Source: Nocardia transvalensis (lineage in GTDB: Bacteria; Actinomycetota; Actinomycetes; Mycobacteriales; Mycobacteriaceae). Taken from it: a stretch of 64,000 nucleotides of DNA. Below the pieces are notes generated by a model. It saw nothing but the letters and a program-made list of their open reading frames with translations. It did not search any database and was not told the origin of the DNA. Both the position numbers and the translations under genes were made by a program. The stretch lies in assembly GCF_015477765.1 (NCBI RefSeq), contig NZ_JADLQQ010000001.1, positions 1 through 64,000 of the forward strand, written 5' to 3'. Positions 13,598-21,410 of the stretch are shown here, in pieces; positions within the stretch are counted from its first letter, which is position 1, and each line of letters begins with the position of its first letter.

Positions 13598-14896
13598 ATG
13601 ACCAACTCGTGGGTGAACTGGGCCGGGGACCAGCGGTGCGCACCGGCCGAGGTCGCCACCCCCCGATCGGCCGAAGAGGTGGCCGCACTGCTCGAGCGGG
13701 CCGAGGCCGCCGGGCAGGCCGTGCGCGTGGCGGGCGCGGGACACTCCTTCTCCGATACCGTGCTGACCGACGGCATGCTGCTGAATCTGTCGCAGCTCAA
13801 CCGCATTCTGCAGGTGGACCGGGCCAGTGGGCTGGTCCGGGTGGAGGCGGGCGCCACCCTCAACGAGCTCAGCAACGCACTGCATCCGATGGGCCTGGCC
13901 TTTCCGAATCTGGGCGATATCGACGTGCAGACCATCGCCGGGGCCACCGCCACCGGCACCCACGGCACCGGCGCGGGGTTCCAGAACATCTCCGCCGCAC
14001 TGCATTCGGTGGAGCTGATGCTCGCCGACGGCAGCCGGGTCGAACTCGACGAGACATCGGACCCCGACGGCTGGCGGGCGGCCCGGGTGAGCCTGGGCGC
14101 GCTCGGCGTGGTCACCGCGGTGACACTGCAGATGGTTCCGTCGTTCGTGCTCGAGGGCGTGGAGCGGCCGGTTCCGGTCGAGGAGGTGCTCGCCGAGCTC
14201 GACGGATACGTCGACGGCAACGATCATTTCGAGTTCTATATGTTCGCCCACAGCCCGCTGGCGATGACCAAGCGCAACAACCGGGTCGCCCTGCCCGAAC
14301 AGCCGCGCGGCAAGGCGGTGGACTGGTTCGCCGACATCCTCATGTCGAACTACACCTTCGATGCACTGTGCCGGGTGAGTCGCCGTCGGCCGCAACTGAT
14401 TCCGTGGATCCACCGCGGCGCGGCCTACGCGGGCAGCTACCGCCGCCAGGTCGACCGGTCCTACCGGGTCTTCGCCTCACCCAGGCTGATTCGCTTCACC
14501 GAAATGGAATATGCGATTCCGCGCGAACACGCGACGGAGGCGATTCGGGAGATCAAACAGCTCGGTCAGCGGTTCGAGTCGCCGATGCCGACCGAGGTGC
14601 GTTTCGTCGCCCCCGACGATGCCTTCCTCTCCCCCGCCGGTGGCCGCGACACCTGCTATATCGCGGTGCATCAATACCGGGGCATGGACTACGAGCCGTA
14701 TTTCCGTGCCTGCGAGGCGGTTTTCGATCGCTTCGACGGCCGTCCGCACTGGGGTAAGCGGCATTTCCAGACGGCGGCGACGCTGCGCGAACGCTATCCG
14801 CACTGGGATCGTTTCCAGGAGGTGCGGCGGCGCTTGGATCCCAAGGGCCGCTTTGCGAATCCGTATGTCGAGCGGGTGCTCGGGGCGCTGGACTGA
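13598..14896 (+). CDS. FAD-linked aldonolactone oxidoreductase (gulono-/arabinono-lactone type)
   Basis: The 432-residue enzyme belongs to the vanillyl-alcohol-oxidase flavoprotein family, near L-gulono-1,4-lactone dehydrogenase (M. tuberculosis Rv1771 type). The FAD domain shows VAGAGHSFSD, then ATGTHGTG. The C-terminal catalytic domain ends with the family hallmark HWGKRHF and a final RFANPYVE. It should oxidise a sugar lactone at the C2/C3 position; the physiological substrate in actinobacteria is uncertain. Its last 103 bases overlap, antisense, the end of the DUF6286-AmaP fusion gene. Confidence 0.9.
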   Translation: MTNSWVNWAGDQRCAPAEVATPRSAEEVAALLERAEAAGQAVRVAGAGHSFSDTVLTDGMLLNLSQLNRILQVDRASGLVRVEAGATLNELSNALHPMGLAFPNLGDIDVQTIAGATATGTHGTGAGFQNISAALHSVELMLADGSRVELDETSDPDGWRAARVSLGALGVVTAVTLQMVPSFVLEGVERPVPVEEVLAELDGYVDGNDHFEFYMFAHSPLAMTKRNNRVALPEQPRGKAVDWFADILMSNYTFDALCRVSRRRPQLIPWIHRGAAYAGSYRRQVDRSYRVFASPRLIRFTEMEYAIPREHATEAIREIKQLGQRFESPMPTEVRFVAPDDAFLSPAGGRDTCYIAVHQYRGMDYEPYFRACEAVFDRFDGRPHWGKRHFQTAATLRERYPHWDRFQEVRRRLDPKGRFANPYVERVLGALD

Positions 14897-15969
14897 GCCT
14901 CGGTCAGATGCACCTCCATGGTCACCGGAACGGCATCGACCTCGAGTGCCTGACGCAGGCGCGGCACGGCGTGGGTGAGGATGCGGTGGCGTAGCGCCGC
15001 CACGTCGGCGTCGGGTGTCGTCGTGACCACCAGGTGCAGTTCGGGGGCGACGCCCGGGCCCAGCAGCCATGCCGAGGCCGAGTGGACTCCGGCGTAGGTC
15101 TCGATGTCGGCCATGACGGGCATGGCGGCCGTGGTCGAATCCAGGGTGATGACGTCCTCGGCGCCCGGCACCCGAGCCCGCCAGCGTGATCCTGCAGGAA
15201 TTCGACGCACCTGCAGGCTCACCCAGTACACGCACGCCAGTCCCACCGCGGCCGCGACGGCGACGATGGTCCACTGCATCCAGGCCGGCGGCGGGGACAC
15301 CTCGGCGATCAGCGGTGCGCTGGTGTCGACCCAGCCCAACAGGGCGTAGTGCGCGGCGAGCAGATAGCCGCCCAGCGCCAGGCACAGCACGCCGATCACC
15401 CCCAGCAGGGTGCGGTTGAGCCGGGCCGGGCGATTGTGCGGAGCTCCGTCGGCGGGCATCTGCCGCAGCGCCGCGGGCAGGCGCGAGGTCGCACACGGCC
15501 CGATCCGGGACAGGCGCTCCTCGACGGCAGCGCGGACCGAATGCGCCAGTTCCACACCGCCGTCGTGCCGGGCCGTGATGCGAATACGCTTGCGGCGCAG
15601 GCGGACTCGCGCCGACCGCACACCGTCGACCGATTGCGCCGCCGCGCGCAGGGCCTCGTGCAGGCCGCGGCGGCCCACCCCGGCGGTCACCTCGTCGTCG
15701 GCCACCAGGGGCACCACGATCGAGCGTCCCGGCAGCACGGCCAGGGCCACCAGCATCACACCGGCGGCGAGCGCGGCCACGCCCACCCCGGCTCCCCGCG
15801 GATCGCCCCAGGTGGTTTCGTGCAGGCGGTTCATCACGCCGTCGTAGGAGATGAATTCGCTTGCTCCGGTGAGCCTTTGGATCAACGACAGGGCCACGAT
15901 CACACATCCGGCCAGCAGCGTCAGCGCCACCACGACCGCCGGCACCACGCGTCGCGGGCGACGCCTCAT
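14794..15969 (-). CDS. DUF6286-AmaP fusion membrane protein
   Basis: The 391-residue reading joins two proteins that are separate genes in the paralogous cluster at 16967-18078. Residues about 1-185 match the DUF6286 protein (basic MRRRPRR start, two membrane helices, then a VVPL-containing soluble domain). From about NRPARLNR it matches the AmaP-like protein (two more helices and a C-terminal cytoplasmic domain). AmaP anchors the alkaline shock protein Asp23 to the membrane in staphylococci. There is no stop between the halves, although an internal ATG (MPADGAP) could also start the second half. The start overlaps the upstream Asp23 stop (ATGA). The end runs 103 bases into the convergent oxidoreductase gene. 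Confidence 0.8.
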   Translation of the reverse strand: MRRRPRRVVPAVVVALTLLAGCVIVALSLIQRLTGASEFISYDGVMNRLHETTWGDPRGAGVGVAALAAGVMLVALAVLPGRSIVVPLVADDEVTAGVGRRGLHEALRAAAQSVDGVRSARVRLRRKRIRITARHDGGVELAHSVRAAVEERLSRIGPCATSRLPAALRQMPADGAPHNRPARLNRTLLGVIGVLCLALGGYLLAAHYALLGWVDTSAPLIAEVSPPPAWMQWTIVAVAAAVGLACVYWVSLQVRRIPAGSRWRARVPGAEDVITLDSTTAAMPVMADIETYAGVHSASAWLLGPGVAPELHLVVTTTPDADVAALRHRILTHAVPRLRQALEVDAVPVTMEVHLTEAQSSAPSTRSTYGFAKRPLGSKRRRTSWKRSQCG

Positions 15970-16316
15970 CGCCTGCCTCGTGCGGGATCCACCAGCGGCA
16001 GGGCGGCGATCTCGATATGCATACGAGAGATCGTCAGCCCGGCGCGTTGGCGCACCCGCTCGGCGATATGGCGGCGGCACACCGTGGCGATCTGCCAGAC
16101 CGGCATGGGATAGCGGATCGGCAACCGCACCGACAGCGTCGCGGTGTTGCCACGAATTCGCGCATGCACGGTGACCTCGGGGGCGACACCGGTGATTTCG
16201 CGGGCCGCCGCCACCGCGGCCGCGGCCACCGTCACGCTGTCGACCGTACGAAGCCTCGGCGGTTCGAACGCGGATTCGACGGCCGCAGAGGGGATGTCGG
16301 TCACCGTGCTCGTCAT
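15966..16316 (-). CDS. Asp23/Gls24-family envelope stress protein
   Basis: The 116-residue protein has the Asp23 domain: an Ala-rich helix with AREITGVAPEV, the strand pair TLSVRLPIRYPMPV, and the final helix-strand TISRMHIEIAAL. Asp23 proteins polymerise at the membrane through an AmaP-type anchor and counter envelope stress. ATG16316 follows AGGAGGAG. It overlaps the DUF6286-AmaP fusion by ATGA, so both are translated together. It is a paralogue of the gene at 18075-18404. Confidence 0.85.
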   Translation of the reverse strand: MTSTVTDIPSAAVESAFEPPRLRTVDSVTVAAAAVAAAREITGVAPEVTVHARIRGNTATLSVRLPIRYPMPVWQIATVCRRHIAERVRQRAGLTISRMHIEIAALPLVDPARGRR

Positions 16317-16639
16317 CGACTCCTCCTGGTTGTCCGCGAATGCGGCAGTGGTGCATCGGTCCGGCCCCCTCGGTAGCGAAACACTAGCTGCATTGCGGCT
16401 TCTGGGCAGTCGACACGCCCGGAAGAACATAATTCGTCGCGGTCCAATCGCCCGATTTAGCAGGGCTCGATTAGCACCTATTTCCGAATGGACACCACAT
16501 AATTCGCCGGTAGAGGCCCGATCCGCAGGTCGAGGTGTCATTTCCACCGTTTCGTTGACACGCCCGAACGCGCGAGCTCAGGATTGAAGGTATGGCCGTT
16601 GTCTGAACGGTTGCTATTCAAATCGACACGGAGGTTTCG

Positions 16640-16966: not shown

Positions 16967-17542
16967 TCAGCGGGCGCCCACCGTGCGGCCGCGGTCGGCC
17001 AGGCGCCATTCGAGGGTGACGGGGATGATGTCGACCTCGAGGGCTTGGCGCAGGCGCGGGACGGCGTGGCCGAGGATGCGGCGGCGGACCGCGGTGAGGT
17101 CGGCGTTCGGTTCGGCCGTGACGATCAAGTGCAGTTCGGGTGCGCGGCTCGGACCGGAGAGCCGGGCCACCGCCGAGCGGACGCCGTCGTAGGACTCGAT
17201 ATCGGCGGCGACCGGCGCGGCGGCGGTCTCGGAGCGCAGCAGGGTCACACCGGCGCCGGCGGGTGCGTCGAGTCGCCACTGCGTCGGCCGCGGCAGACGG
17301 GAGACCTGGGCGGCGAGCCAGCGCAGGCTGGCCAGGGCCACGATCACCGCACCGACGACGACCGACCACAGCACCCACTGCGGCGGGGCGCCGGTGCCCG
17401 GAACCAGCGGCGCGTCCGGATCCGCCCAGTGCAGCCGCCCCAGGTGGGCGGCGATCGCGTAACCGCCCCCGGCCGTCAGTAGCAGGCCGATCAGACCCAG
17501 CAGAACCCGATTCAGCCGGGCCGGACGGTTGACCGTGCTCAT
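16967..17542 (-). CDS. amaP: AmaP-like Asp23 membrane anchor
   Basis: The 191-residue protein starts MSTVNRPARLNRVLLG and has two membrane helices (about 10-33 and 58-80). A cytoplasmic domain follows with DIESYDGVRSA and a C-terminal VPRLRQALEVD helix. This layout is that of AmaP, the alkaline shock response membrane anchor that tethers Asp23. It is the last gene of the leftward operon and overlaps the DUF6286 gene by ATGA. Confidence 0.8.
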   Translation of the reverse strand: MSTVNRPARLNRVLLGLIGLLLTAGGGYAIAAHLGRLHWADPDAPLVPGTGAPPQWVLWSVVVGAVIVALASLRWLAAQVSRLPRPTQWRLDAPAGAGVTLLRSETAAAPVAADIESYDGVRSAVARLSGPSRAPELHLIVTAEPNADLTAVRRRILGHAVPRLRQALEVDIIPVTLEWRLADRGRTVGAR

Positions 17543-18078
17543 CGCTCACCCCCCGCCTTCGCCGGACGCAGCCTGGTCTCGATCCGCGGGAACACCCGCG
17601 GCGCGATCCGCAGCAGCCGCTGTTCGATCGCGGCCCGCACGGCCTCCGGCAGCGCGTCGACGCTACCTTGCCCGGATCGACCCTTGACTCGAACCTTCTT
17701 GCGCCCCATCCGGATTCGCGACGATTCCAGCCCGTCCACCGTGGCGGCGGCATCGCGCACCGCCCCGCGCAGACTGCGCCGCGCGATCCCGGCGTCCACC
17801 CCGTCCTCGGATTCCAGGGGCACCACGACCGATCGGCCCGGCAGCAGCGCGACAGCGAGCAGCGCCAGCCCGACCACCACGGCCGCGATACCCACCACGA
17901 GCACTCGCACGCTGTCCCAGGTGGTGTCGTGCAGGTAGTTCGCCACACTGTCGTAGGAGACGAATTCCCTGGCGCCGCTGAGCCTTTGGATCAGCGACAC
18001 CGCCACCACCACCGATCCGGCCAGCAGCACCAGCACCACCACGACGGCGGGCACGATGCGGCGCGGTCTGCGAATCAT
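17539..18078 (-). CDS. DUF6286 membrane protein of the Asp23 cluster
   Basis: The 179-residue protein has a basic start (MIRRPRRIVPAVV), two membrane helices (about 8-33 and 57-78), and a soluble part with GRSVVVPLESEDGV and a basic patch RMGRKKVRVKGR. DUF6286 proteins are known only from their neighbourhood with Asp23 and AmaP genes in actinobacteria; their function is undescribed. The gene is coupled by ATGA overlaps to the genes on both sides. A fused homologue exists at 14794-15969. Confidence 0.82.
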   Translation of the reverse strand: MIRRPRRIVPAVVVVLVLLAGSVVVAVSLIQRLSGAREFVSYDSVANYLHDTTWDSVRVLVVGIAAVVVGLALLAVALLPGRSVVVPLESEDGVDAGIARRSLRGAVRDAAATVDGLESSRIRMGRKKVRVKGRSGQGSVDALPEAVRAAIEQRLLRIAPRVFPRIETRLRPAKAGGER

Positions 18079-18404
18079 CGGACTCTCCTCTCCCCGGTGC
18101 CGGTCGGCAGCGCCGACACCTCGATATCCACCCGCGGTACCGACAGCCCGGACAGTTCGCCGGTGCGCCGGATCAGATGTGTGCGGCATTCCTCGCTCAC
18201 CCGCGCGACCGGCTGCGGGTACCGGACCGGCAGCCGCACGTGCAGGGTGGCCGAGTCCCCGACGACTCGCGCCGCCACCTGCACGTCCGGGCCCACCCCG
18301 GCCACCTCGCGCGCCGCGCGGGCCGCGATCCGCCGCACCGCGCGCTCACCGACGGTGGTCCTCCCCGGCAGTTCGGCCGGCACCGGCGCGGTCACGGCGG
18401 TCAT
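18075..18404 (-). CDS. Asp23/Gls24-family envelope stress protein
   Basis: This 109-residue Asp23-domain protein has VRRIAARAAREVAGVGPDV, the strand LHVRLPVRYPQPV, and a final VDIEVSAL. It is paralogous to the gene at 15966-16316, and each stands immediately before a DUF6286 gene. It overlaps the small DUF2273-like gene before it and the DUF6286 gene after it by four bases each. Confidence 0.85.
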   Translation of the reverse strand: MTAVTAPVPAELPGRTTVGERAVRRIAARAAREVAGVGPDVQVAARVVGDSATLHVRLPVRYPQPVARVSEECRTHLIRRTGELSGLSVPRVDIEVSALPTGTGERRVR

Positions 18405-18589
18405 CGCCGGCTCCGTGGGCGATCGGAGCGAATCAGCCCGGACAGGTCGACCTCGCCGTCGAGCCAGCGGCCGATGAGCAGGCCGAGCCCGCCGAAGACC
18501 AGCACGATGGCGAAGGCGCCGAAACCGCCGAAGGCAGCGGCGAATCCGAGGGCCAGCCCGAGGACCAGACAGATCGTGGTGGCGTTCAT
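18401..18589 (-). CDS. Small DUF2273-like membrane protein
   Basis: The 62-residue product is two close hydrophobic helices (LVLGLALGFAAAFGG and AIVLVFGGLGLLIGR) with a basic tail. This is the pattern of the DUF2273-type small membrane proteins often found in Asp23 operons. In staphylococci such a partner sits beside asp23 and amaP. ATG18589 follows the upstream Asp23 stop after one base, and its own stop overlaps the next Asp23 gene. Confidence 0.75.
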   Translation of the reverse strand: MNATTICLVLGLALGFAAAFGGFGAFAIVLVFGGLGLLIGRWLDGEVDLSGLIRSDRPRSRR

Positions 18590-18590
18590 C

Positions 18591-19082
18591 TCACTGCACC
18601 CGATCCCGGCCGGATTGCTGTTCCTCGTCGTCGTAGTCCTCGATGTAGACGTCGTTGACATTGATATTGACCTCGACGACCTCGAGCCCGGTCATCTGCT
18701 CGATCGCGGTGACCACATTGCGGCGCACCGCCCGCGCCAATTCGGCGATCGCCACCCCGTACTCGACGACGAGGTCGAGGTCGACGGCGGCCTGCTTTTC
18801 CCCGACCTCGACCGAAACACCCTGTCCCACACTGGCGGACGCCCCCGGGATGCGGTCGCGCAGGGCGCCGAACGCCCTGGCCGCCCCGCCGCCGAGGGCG
18901 TGCACGCCGCGCACCTCGCGCGCGGCCAGCCCGGCGATCTTCTGCACGACGGTGTCGGCGATGGTGGTGGTGCCCTTGTCGGTGACCAGGGCGCTGTTCT
19001 TCGCCGAGGTGTCGCGGGCGGATTTGCCGTGGTCGCCGCCCTTGGCGTTCTCGGTGGCCTTCTCGGTGGTCGTGCTCGTCAT
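18591..19082 (-). CDS. Asp23/Gls24-family envelope stress protein (long form)
   Basis: This 163-residue protein is the most canonical Asp23 of the locus. A Thr/Lys-rich N-terminus is followed by TTIADTVVQKIAGLAAREVRGV, the acidic strand VDLDLVVEYG, and VNINVNDVYIED at the end. Asp23 forms a membrane-associated network in firmicutes. ATG19082 has GGGAGAA before it. A 94-base gap separates it from the upstream gene, so it may also have its own promoter. Confidence 0.9.
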   Translation of the reverse strand: MTSTTTEKATENAKGGDHGKSARDTSAKNSALVTDKGTTTIADTVVQKIAGLAAREVRGVHALGGGAARAFGALRDRIPGASASVGQGVSVEVGEKQAAVDLDLVVEYGVAIAELARAVRRNVVTAIEQMTGLEVVEVNINVNDVYIEDYDDEEQQSGRDRVQ

Positions 19083-19176
19083 AATGTTCTCCCGATTCCC
19101 TTGCGGTACAGCGGATAACGACCTTCATTCCGATCGACACGACCGCGCGTGAAACGTCACGGCCCAGGCACGTGAT

Positions 19177-19518
19177 CTAGGTAACTGAGGAATTGCCAGT
19201 ATTCGAGTCTTTGAACGCGTCCGCATCGAGATCGGTGACGACGATCCGCAGCGCGGCGTCGGCCCACTCCGTATCGGTCACGATGTCGCGGACGAGCTCG
19301 GTGAGCCGTTCCAGCAGGGGCGGCAGCGGCAGCGCGGTCGCGACCACCTGAACTTCGACGGATCCGGGCGAGAGATCGATGGCGGCACGCCTGCGGTCCC
19401 ACGGCAGCCAGTCGGCATCGGGCAGCGCCAGTGGCACTGCCGGGCGCAGTCCGGCCACCGATTCCACGGCCGCCACGAGCCGATCGATCACATCCCCCTC
19501 GGTGGTCACAGCAGTCAC
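19177..19518 (-). CDS. Asp23-cluster protein of unknown function
   Basis: The 113-residue product starts with GTG19518 inside a GTGA overlap with the upstream Asp23 stop. It has an acidic, largely soluble sequence with WLPWDRRRAAIDLSPG, the strand VEVQVVATALPLPPLL and a final IVVTDLDADAF. The strand-helix spacing (SVEVQVV, LLERLTELV, LRIVVTDLD) resembles a divergent Asp23 domain, but that is inference. Its coupling shows that it belongs to the sigma/Asp23 operon. Confidence 0.7.
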   Translation of the reverse strand: MTAVTTEGDVIDRLVAAVESVAGLRPAVPLALPDADWLPWDRRRAAIDLSPGSVEVQVVATALPLPPLLERLTELVRDIVTDTEWADAALRIVVTDLDADAFKDSNTGNSSVT

Positions 19519-19892
19519 GACTCCCCCGGCTCGATATCGAGGACGGCCACCGCGACGGCGTCCACCTCCACTCCGGTCTGTTCGGTGACCGCGCGCGCGA
19601 CCCGCTGCTGGACGGCCTGTCCCACCTCGCCGATCCGGGCACCCGCCGACATGGCGAGATCGACCTGAATATTCAGCCATCCGCCCGCTCGCCGCACCCG
19701 CACACCCGGCGACGGCGCCGACTCCTGCCCGGTCCACAGCTGCCGTCCCGACCGCGCCAGATGCCCGACCAGCCCGAGCACGCCCGGTTCCAGCCGCAGC
19801 ACGCCCGGCACCGCGGCGGCGGCCCGGGCGGCGACGCCGGCGATCACCGCATCGGCGACCACGTATTCGATCTGCGGCGCGACGGCGGTCAC
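19515..19892 (-). CDS. Asp23/Gls24-family envelope stress protein
   Basis: This 125-residue Asp23-domain protein has VIAGVAARAAAAVPGV, the strand LNIQVDLAMS and a final VAVAVLDIE. It begins with GTG19892 overlapping the stop of the zinc-finger-Asp23 gene (GTGA), so the two are translated together. It lies in the sigma-proximal part of the operon. Confidence 0.83.
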   Translation of the reverse strand: MTAVAPQIEYVVADAVIAGVAARAAAAVPGVLRLEPGVLGLVGHLARSGRQLWTGQESAPSPGVRVRRAGGWLNIQVDLAMSAGARIGEVGQAVQQRVARAVTEQTGVEVDAVAVAVLDIEPGES

Positions 19893-20473
19893 CGCTCCTC
19901 CTCGTAGATGTCGACGACGGTGATGTCGAGGCGTTCCAGGGCCAGGCCGATGCGCGCCGAGAGCGCCGCGCGCACCCGCTCGCGCACGCGGGGAATCAGC
20001 TCCTCGACACCGCGACCGCCCATGCGCACCGCGATGGTCATCTCGACCGCGATGGTCTGTTCACCGTCGGCACCGGGCCCGCGGCCGTGCACGTGGCAGC
20101 TGCGGGCTCGCACACCGTCGACGGTGTCGGCCGCATACCGCAGCACGACCGCGACCGCCTGCTCGCTCACCTCCAGCGTCCCGGGGTGCGGGGTCGACAG
20201 CGCCAGTGTGCGGCCGCGCCGCACCTCCGCCCGGACCGCGGACATGATGCGGCCGAACAGATCCGGGGGCGGCGGATCGGGCTCCTCGATCAGTTCCCGC
20301 GTCGCCGTGCGCAGGGTGAACAGGCTCTCCCGCGCCGCGGCGCAGTGCGGGCAGCTCGCCTCGTGGTCGTCGGCCCGTCCGGCCTCGACCGCGTCGAGGC
20401 GTTGCCACACCTGTTCCAGGCCGCGACCGCACGGCAGCAGATAGTCGTTTTCGGTGGCGCTGGTCACCGCCAT
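19889..20473 (-). CDS. Zinc-finger anti-sigma-like N-terminus fused to Asp23 domain
   Basis: The 194-residue protein has two parts. Residues about 30-60 carry HEASCPHC, the H-x3-C-x2-C motif of zinc-binding anti-sigma (ZAS) domains. Residues about 95-194 form an Asp23/Gls24 domain ending LDITVVDIYEEER. It overlaps the ECF sigma gene by ten bases, the usual place for a cognate anti-sigma factor. The inference is that it restrains the sigma factor and senses Asp23-scaffold or redox state. There is no membrane helix, so any membrane link would come through the Asp23 partners. Confidence 0.8.
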   Translation of the reverse strand: MAVTSATENDYLLPCGRGLEQVWQRLDAVEAGRADDHEASCPHCAAARESLFTLRTATRELIEEPDPPPPDLFGRIMSAVRAEVRRGRTLALSTPHPGTLEVSEQAVAVVLRYAADTVDGVRARSCHVHGRGPGADGEQTIAVEMTIAVRMGGRGVEELIPRVRERVRAALSARIGLALERLDITVVDIYEEER

Positions 20474-21030
20474 GGCTGCATCACCTCCGCCAATTGCGCC
20501 CGGGCCCGTGCGATGCGACCGCGCACCGCGGTGGTGTTGGTGCCGACGATCTCGGCGATCTCCTCGTAGGAGCGCCCGTGCACCTCACGCAGCAGCCAGC
20601 AGGCCCGTTGTTCCGGTGTCAGCTGCGCCAGCGCGGCCTCGAGGGCCGCCAGCTGGCTGCTGACCTGCACCGCGTGATCCGGCCGGGTCTCGGTCCGCGG
20701 CGATTCGGTGGAGTCGGGGTCCACGTCGGCGGGGACCTTGCGCGACCTGAGCACATTGAGACAGCGGTTGGTGGTCATCCGATACAGCCAGCCCGCGAAT
20801 GCCGCATCGTCGTGCAATTGGCCAATGCGCCGCCACGCGGTCAGGAAGACCTCCTGGGTGACGTCCTCGGCCTCGGACCGGTCGGCCAGCATCTTCGCCG
20901 CCAACCGGAACATCGCCCCCTGGTAGCGCAGCACGAGCTGCTCGTAGGCCCGGACATCGCCGTCACGCGCCCGGCCGGCCAGGGTCGCGTCGTCCAGCGC
21001 TGCCTCGGGTGCCGTCGCCGTCGTGGTCAC
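20464..21030 (-). CDS. ECF RNA polymerase sigma factor
   Basis: The 188-residue protein has sigma region 2 (YEQLVLRYQGAMFRLA followed by the DVTQEVFLTAWR helix) and region 4 (LTPEQRACWLLREV, then YEEIAEIVGTNTTAVRGRIARA). GTG21030 follows a strong GGAGGAGGTG site. It heads the leftward Asp23 operon and overlaps the zinc-finger-Asp23 gene. A possible self-recognised promoter, AACTT-N16-CGGATA, lies about 60-90 bases upstream on the same strand. The sigma factor probably directs envelope-stress expression of this locus. Confidence 0.92.
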   Translation of the reverse strand: MTTTATAPEAALDDATLAGRARDGDVRAYEQLVLRYQGAMFRLAAKMLADRSEAEDVTQEVFLTAWRRIGQLHDDAAFAGWLYRMTTNRCLNVLRSRKVPADVDPDSTESPRTETRPDHAVQVSSQLAALEAALAQLTPEQRACWLLREVHGRSYEEIAEIVGTNTTAVRGRIARARAQLAEVMQPWR

Positions 21031-21203
21031 TCGGGCACCTCCTCCCACTGCTCCTCCGATCGACACCGGGGAGCGGGAATCGTCATGCAGAATTATCCGT
21101 GATCGTTGTCTCGAAAGTTGCTGCGTGACGTTCGCGAGTCTCGGTCTGTCCTGGTAGATGTCCGCGCCCACCCGGGCGCGACCGAATGGATACGGAGATT
21201 TCC

Positions 21204-21410
21204 ATGGCTTTGAACGACAAGATCAACAATGCGGCGGAGGACCTGGGCGGGAAGGCCAAGGAGGCCGCAGGGTCGGTGACCGGCGACGACCGGTTGCGGG
21301 ACGAGGGTAAGGGAGATCAGCTCGAGGCCGGAGTGAAGAAGGCCGCCGAGGATGTCAAAGACGCCGCCCGCACCGTGGCCGACAAGGTGAAGAACGCCTT
21401 CAAGAGGTGA
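21204..21410 (+). CDS. CsbD-family stress protein
   Basis: The 68-residue hydrophilic protein shows the CsbD hallmark: KINNAAEDLGGKAKEAAGSVTGDDRLRDEGKGDQ read in segments, then a Lys/Ala-rich amphipathic helix. CsbD genes are general-stress (sigma-B type) targets in other bacteria, with unknown molecular role. ATG21204 has CGGAGA six bases ahead; the earlier ATG21186 lacks a site. It is divergent from the ECF sigma gene and therefore shares its control region. Confidence 0.88.
   Translation: MALNDKINNAAEDLGGKAKEAAGSVTGDDRLRDEGKGDQLEAGVKKAAEDVKDAARTVADKVKNAFKR

Follow-up and report, generated by a model that had tools for sequence, protein, structure and literature searches.

A stretch of 64,000 nucleotides of Nocardia transvalensis DNA (contig NZ_JADLQQ010000001.1 of assembly GCF_015477765.1, positions 1 to 64,000; hereafter, the window) contains a minus-strand locus in which the gene for an extracytoplasmic function (ECF) sigma factor overlaps a gene for a fusion protein, whose zinc-motif N-terminal half is followed by an Asp23 domain. 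The overlap measures ten bases (20464-20473), and the gene positions given in an earlier note on this DNA are correct. Downstream lie genes for further Asp23 proteins and for membrane proteins; the order is sigma, fusion, aspB and orfX and then, 94 bases further on, aspC, followed by the genes for a small membrane protein, aspD, a DUF6286 protein and an AmaP-like protein. The genes and domains are as follows (E, expect value).

20464-21030, minus strand: ECF sigma factor, regions 2 and 4 (Pfam Sigma70_r2, E 1.4e-16; r4_2, E 2.6e-15)
19889-20473, minus strand: zinc-finger anti-sigma-type/Asp23 fusion of 194 amino acids, without a transmembrane-like stretch
20216-20431, minus strand: predicted class I anti-sigma half of the fusion (C15, H37, C41, C44 and helices)
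19907-20179, minus strand: Asp23 domain of the fusion, residues 99-189, from profile comparisons
19515-19892, minus strand: aspB, Asp23 protein above the Pfam cut-off; overlaps the fusion gene by 4 bases
19177-19518, minus strand: orfX, conserved coupled gene without a Pfam match
18591-19082, minus strand: aspC, main Asp23 scaffold protein (PF03780, E 4.5e-32, above the cut-off)
18401-18661, minus strand (start may be 18589): small membrane protein, DUF2273-like (weak, E 0.63), with hydrophobic stretches
18075-18404, minus strand: aspD, short Asp23-like protein (20.8 bits, below the cut-off; profile probability 99.8 to aspC)
17539-18078, minus strand: DUF6286 membrane protein (E 6.6e-24) with hydrophobic stretches
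16967-17542, minus strand: AmaP-like membrane protein (NF033218, 36.6 bits, below the cut-off of 55)

The sigma product consists of Sigma-70 regions 2 and 4 only, which places it among the ECF sigma factors. Its gene lies directly upstream of the fusion gene in all 38 named loci, which come from Nocardia, Amycolatopsis and one Pseudonocardia metagenome-assembled genome, and the ten-base overlap is present in 34 of them. The two genes also adjoin each other in all of the 25 genomes outside the genus that match best (L055-L079). The closest named relative of the fusion, with 84% identity, is from Nocardia. The four-base overlap of the fusion gene with aspB recurs in each of the 36 loci where both were found, and orfX, coupled to aspB, is present in 36 of 38; some start codons of orfX and aspC were miscalled in this survey of overlaps. 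No Pfam family matches orfX, which the earlier note overlooked, and profile comparison does not support reading it as a degenerate Asp23 protein (probability at most 10.6). A CsbD gene (21186-21410, plus strand) is divergent from the sigma gene, and tblastn locates a divergent CsbD gene just 5' of sigma in 17 of the 38 loci.

The H-x3-C-x2-C motif of the fusion corresponds to H37-C41-C44, and C15, which the earlier note does not name, is a fourth likely ligand. All 158 near-relative rows share C15, H37, C41 and C44; these rows consist of the window, the 38 loci and 119 out of 306 relatives from databases, near-duplicates counted. Among the alignments prepared, A1 includes a single stray row of six residues (L008:1-20), A3 was left unused because of misalignment, and A4 was selected after trying which sets of rows align correctly. 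In the predicted model of the fusion, the helices within residues 19-63 form a bundle, followed by a linker and a fourth helix at residues 72-85 (RIMSAVRAEVRRG) of the type that binds sigma region 2; residues I76, M77 and V80 of this helix are likewise identical in all 158 rows. According to PMC7406223, helix 1 of class I anti-sigma factors touches sigma region 4 and helix 4 touches sigma region 2, and about 72% of the soluble class I anti-sigma domains carry a zinc motif. The fusion displays the traits of this class, namely conserved ligands, a bundle with a fourth helix, and a gene adjoining that of an ECF sigma factor, and zinc binding by C15, H37, C41 and C44 is anticipated from the sequence. 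A chance origin of the ligand motif or of the gene overlap is ruled out by the conservation of both across rows and loci. The fusion is real and old, and no local accident.

The C-terminal half, which the earlier note had also recognized as an Asp23 domain, scores 26.9 bits against the Pfam PF03780 cut-off of 28, and 29.3 bits, above that value, in a genome search with neighbours in the frame. Profile-profile comparison matches it to aspD and aspC with probabilities of 92.0 and 90.2, and to aspB with 62.7. PF03780 matches at E<=1 in 69 of 78 relatives, and the Asp23-half residues S103, R112, D116, R124 and D188 are identical in 158 of 158 rows. The matches listed by a Foldseek search with the fusion model were to the Asp23 half and included the C-terminal domain of MamM and OsmC/Ohr proteins; by sequence, the profile had no convincing relative in the PDB (best E 0.18). 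The expectation of two to three further Asp23 proteins holds in full for aspB and aspC; the third, aspD, is recognized through its profile match to aspC. As for the membrane proteins, DUF6286 is clear, and the DUF2273-like and AmaP-like assignments are weak; the curated NF033218 cut-off is not reached, hence the designation of the latter as AmaP-like only.

Two copies of a predicted ECF promoter motif, each preceded by a CRP-like box, are found in the locus.

21062-21085, minus strand: predicted ECF promoter of the sigma cassette, TGACG-N14-GTGTC
19136-19159, minus strand: predicted ECF promoter of the scaffold operon, TGACG-N14-GTGTC
21099-21112, minus strand: CRP-like box 5' of the sigma promoter, G[AT][GT]A-N6-TCAC
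19172-19185, minus strand: CRP-like box 5' of the scaffold promoter, G[AT][GT]A-N6-TCAC

The first motif faces sigma and the second faces aspC. With spacers of 13-16, the motif occurs upstream of sigma in 31 of 39 rows and upstream of aspC in 13 of 34, compared with 0.9% and 0.2% in shuffles; one loosened position per box raises these counts to 34/39 and 20/34. The rows come from related species and are therefore not independent, and the 34 include the aspC calls of L038, L039, L043 and L045, which point at aspB. The aspC gene was not found in the fetched stretch of seven Amycolatopsis loci. Before the other seven genes tested the motif occurs once or not at all. In distant families, a looser motif is found before aspC in 12 of 34 rows, before sigma in 2 of 33 and before the DUF6286 gene (d6286) in 2 of 13, against expectations of 0.03, 0.09 and 0.04, respectively. 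The sharing of one motif by sigma and aspC implies that sigma probably drives the scaffold operon along with its own cassette, and from the position and sharing of the motif we consider control of the scaffold operon by sigma likely, with both TGACG-N14-GTGTC sites presumably used by sigma itself. The genes had been described as a single operon; the predicted promoter before aspC (19082), which the earlier note does not mention, makes two promoters probable.

A wide regulon carrying the exact motif was considered and rejected. Genome-wide, 16 exact sites compare with 13 for the reversed control, which is chance level, so no regulon is seen beyond the sigma cassette and the scaffold operon. Inexact matches within the window are also at chance (28 versus 39.8 expected). 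The CRP-like box, which we take to belong to the CRP/GlxR-like family, lies upstream of sigma in 37 of 39 rows (0.18 expected from block shuffles) and of aspC in 20 of 34 (0.15 expected), and a second regulator probably acts at both predicted promoters.

A second module (14477-16547, minus strand) has Asp23-like, DUF6286-like and AmaP-like parts, as judged by eye, the last two forming one open frame (14794-16356). Second modules were located by tblastn in L014, L015 and L017. As a carrier of the sigma promoter this module was rejected, as no match with up to 2 mismatches was found there.

Within the genus of the window, the fusion is present in 65 of 118 genomes and a scaffold Asp23 gene (E<=1e-10) in 67, including all 65 with the fusion (p 1.7e-31, for two elements that form one linked locus). 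The fusion thus never occurs without a scaffold Asp23 gene among these 118 genomes, which, together with the shared motif, supports a tie of the sigma factor to the Asp23 scaffold. Of the two remaining genomes among the 67, one (L128) has the scaffold operon, with no sigma or fusion detected. In the other (L129, 5094-5960) the sigma gene is open and the scaffold operon is present, and by eye its fusion, aspB and orfX are reduced to a short remnant. A TGACG-N15-GTGTC motif precedes aspC there (L129:5775), and the loose pattern gave no match upstream of the sigma gene. L129 may represent a natural strain with a perhaps unrestrained sigma factor.

The conservation of this neighbourhood across the order had been proposed as a check. 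In the family, 8 of 121 genomes match, seven of them from the same genus and one with a weak match to Asp23 only, and the arrangement reappears in other families of the class. A class-wide search matched 49 of 394 genomes and 24 of 137 sampled genera, weak matches included. Among the 45 matching genomes outside the genus, 38 were fetched, leaving out G002, G122, G145, G235, G371, G423 and G456. A phylum search with a diverse alignment gave mostly matches to the Asp23 region. From the fetched set, L084 was set aside as another type of anti-sigma protein, judged by eye, and the matches in L087 and L093 are ordinary Asp23 proteins.

Conservation of the zinc ligands, also proposed as a check, holds throughout the near relatives and fails in some distant loci that keep the remaining parts. 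The full set is retained in 23 of the 25 distant loci L055-L079, the histidine being lost in L077 and L078. The zinc finger is absent from L082, L083, L085 and L088, where sigma, helix 4 and Asp23 are all retained, and by score alone also from L104 and L105. These variants bear on a possible redox switch of the RsrA/ChrR kind, acting through thiols or zinc, in which oxidation of C15, C41 or C44 would expel zinc and free sigma, the Asp23 half merely stabilising or localising the fusion. The four-ligand pattern and predicted solubility of the fusion are those of redox-sensing zinc anti-sigma factors, and the invariance of the ligands in near relatives fits such a switch; but the relatives that have lost the finger or its histidine do not, and the operon predicted as the target codes for Asp23 and membrane proteins, not for thiol enzymes. 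We consider redox control unlikely. The existence of relatives without a zinc finger, yet with helix 4 and Asp23, makes Asp23, and not zinc, the likelier sensor, and we put sensing through the Asp23 half at about even.

Natural fusions with the sigma factor occur as well. L081 is a single chain in which sigma 2 and sigma 4 are followed by helix 4 and Asp23, with the zinc ligands absent, and P0127, read by eye, is a single chain holding every part. In P0131, P0132 (Nocardia paucivorans) and P0133, also read by eye, sigma 2 is joined to helix 4 and Asp23, the zinc finger is absent and sigma 4 is missing or shortened; part of these single-chain proteins may be decaying. The losses and joins match the contacts expected from PMC7406223, with helix 1 paired to sigma 4 and helix 4 to sigma 2. 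In the model of one natural sigma fusion the sigma part is folded compactly, as in the SigW-RsiW complex, although the same model also matches SigG1, a sigma factor whose structure was determined in the absence of an anti-sigma protein.

Several observations weigh against an anti-sigma function. No curated anti-sigma model scores above its cut-off for the fusion (NF052375, 17.7 bits versus 100), and zf-HC2 is absent among the Pfam families listed. Ten fetched genomes of one family (f21) encode a protein that combines a remnant of helix 4 with an Asp23 half, and the stretch examined in them contains no sigma gene. These loci are L086, L090, L091, L092, L107-L109, L111, L112 and L115, and the protein is divergent from aspC. 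Because G204 and G157 have a second helix 4-Asp23 match besides the sigma-linked one, the proteins of the sigma-less loci may be paralogues. The missing anti-sigma model and the sigma-less loci would suit a scaffold subunit of the Asp23 type whose N-terminus binds zinc and whose gene simply shares a stress operon with sigma. Such a role is very improbable, given the overlap kept across families, the retention of helix 4 where the zinc site is lost, the several natural sigma fusions and a modelled sigma as compact as in some anti-sigma complexes. The coupling, the class-I-like anatomy, the natural fusions and the modelled sigma shape argue strongly that the fusion is an anti-sigma factor.

The whole is best explained, with somewhat more than even confidence, by an anti-sigma fusion, a scaffold operon driven by sigma and a negative loop mediated by Asp23. 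The fusion would hold the overlapping ECF sigma factor inactive as a soluble anti-sigma factor, its zinc bundle lying against region 4 of sigma and its helix 72-85 against region 2. Once freed, sigma would transcribe the Asp23 membrane-scaffold operon as well as its own cassette. Through its Asp23 half the fusion probably binds to Asp23 subunits of the scaffold itself, and sigma activity would thereby track the amount of scaffold available or its state of assembly. With sufficient scaffold, sigma would be held; a depleted or disturbed scaffold would free it, and the scaffold would be restored. This negative sign of the feedback is put forward tentatively. The opposite sign would apply if envelope stress drew the fusion into the membrane Asp23 scaffold and sigma were let go. 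Anatomy and promoter data fit this recruitment equally, the scaffold operon encodes DUF6286 and AmaP-like proteins, and AmaP ties Asp23 to the membrane in Staphylococcus aureus, as stated in PMC6954212. More scaffold would then free more sigma, a positive loop in need of another brake, and we hold recruitment and release to be improbable. The interpretation offered in the earlier note is partly supported: inference favours an anti-sigma role towards the overlapping sigma factor and a link of sigma to the Asp23 scaffold, and release of sigma on loss of the scaffold is one of two signs that would fit.

The fusion resembles the soluble zinc anti-sigma factors ChrR, RsrA and RshA in its C..H-x3-C-x2-C pattern, its helical bundle with a further helix and its adjoining sigma gene, and RsiW serves as the comparison for a wrapped binding mode. 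Unlike in ChrR, RsrA and RshA, the C-terminal partner is Asp23 (in the known factors it is a cupin, as in ChrR, or there is none), and some relatives do not have the zinc finger. The phage shock response PspA-PspF is similar in that a membrane-scaffold protein also keeps in check the regulator of the operon encoding it, with PspF released upon recruitment of PspA to the membrane. That regulator is an enhancer-binding protein, in contrast to the sigma factor here, and we know of no proteins in common. In S. aureus, Asp23 is an output of SigB. Its Asp23-AmaP scaffold, as described in PMC6954212, likewise combines Asp23 with small membrane partners in one operon and has an envelope-related role; by contrast, Asp23 occurs here within a predicted anti-sigma factor, and the AmaP-like protein falls below the AmaP cut-off.

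The earlier note knew of no described system of this kind. The kind has in fact been predicted: a 2022 review (PMC8999054), citing Casas-Pastor et al. 2021, states in one sentence that ECF286 and ECF292 adjoin Asp23-family proteins predicted as anti-sigma factors. By that description, the sigma gene adjoins one for a soluble Asp23-family protein in both arrangements; the passage concerned says nothing of a fusion with a zinc finger, of a promoter in common, of a scaffold loop or of single chains. Beyond that sentence no paper on the fusion was found in searches of an open-licence library with few subscription papers, nor was any mention there of its anatomy, of the promoter motif shared by sigma and aspC, of a zinc finger that can be dispensed with, of the single chains or of the co-occurrence. 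The pairing of an ECF sigma factor with an Asp23-family anti-sigma factor is thus already known as a prediction, to which these five points are added here.

The anti-sigma factor is possibly an Asp23 scaffold protein that gained a sigma-binding helix, a suggestion we make with reserve; it would then read the state of the scaffold directly, and the single chains would be scaffold-gated sigma factors. What Asp23 does at the molecular level is still unclear according to PMC6954212, and a sigma factor tied by promoter and protein domain to the Asp23 scaffold would provide a ready readout of what the scaffold senses. Scaffold status would be added to the inputs of anti-sigma factors and, if the proposal is true, the cell could gauge its own scaffold through the protein that blocks sigma.
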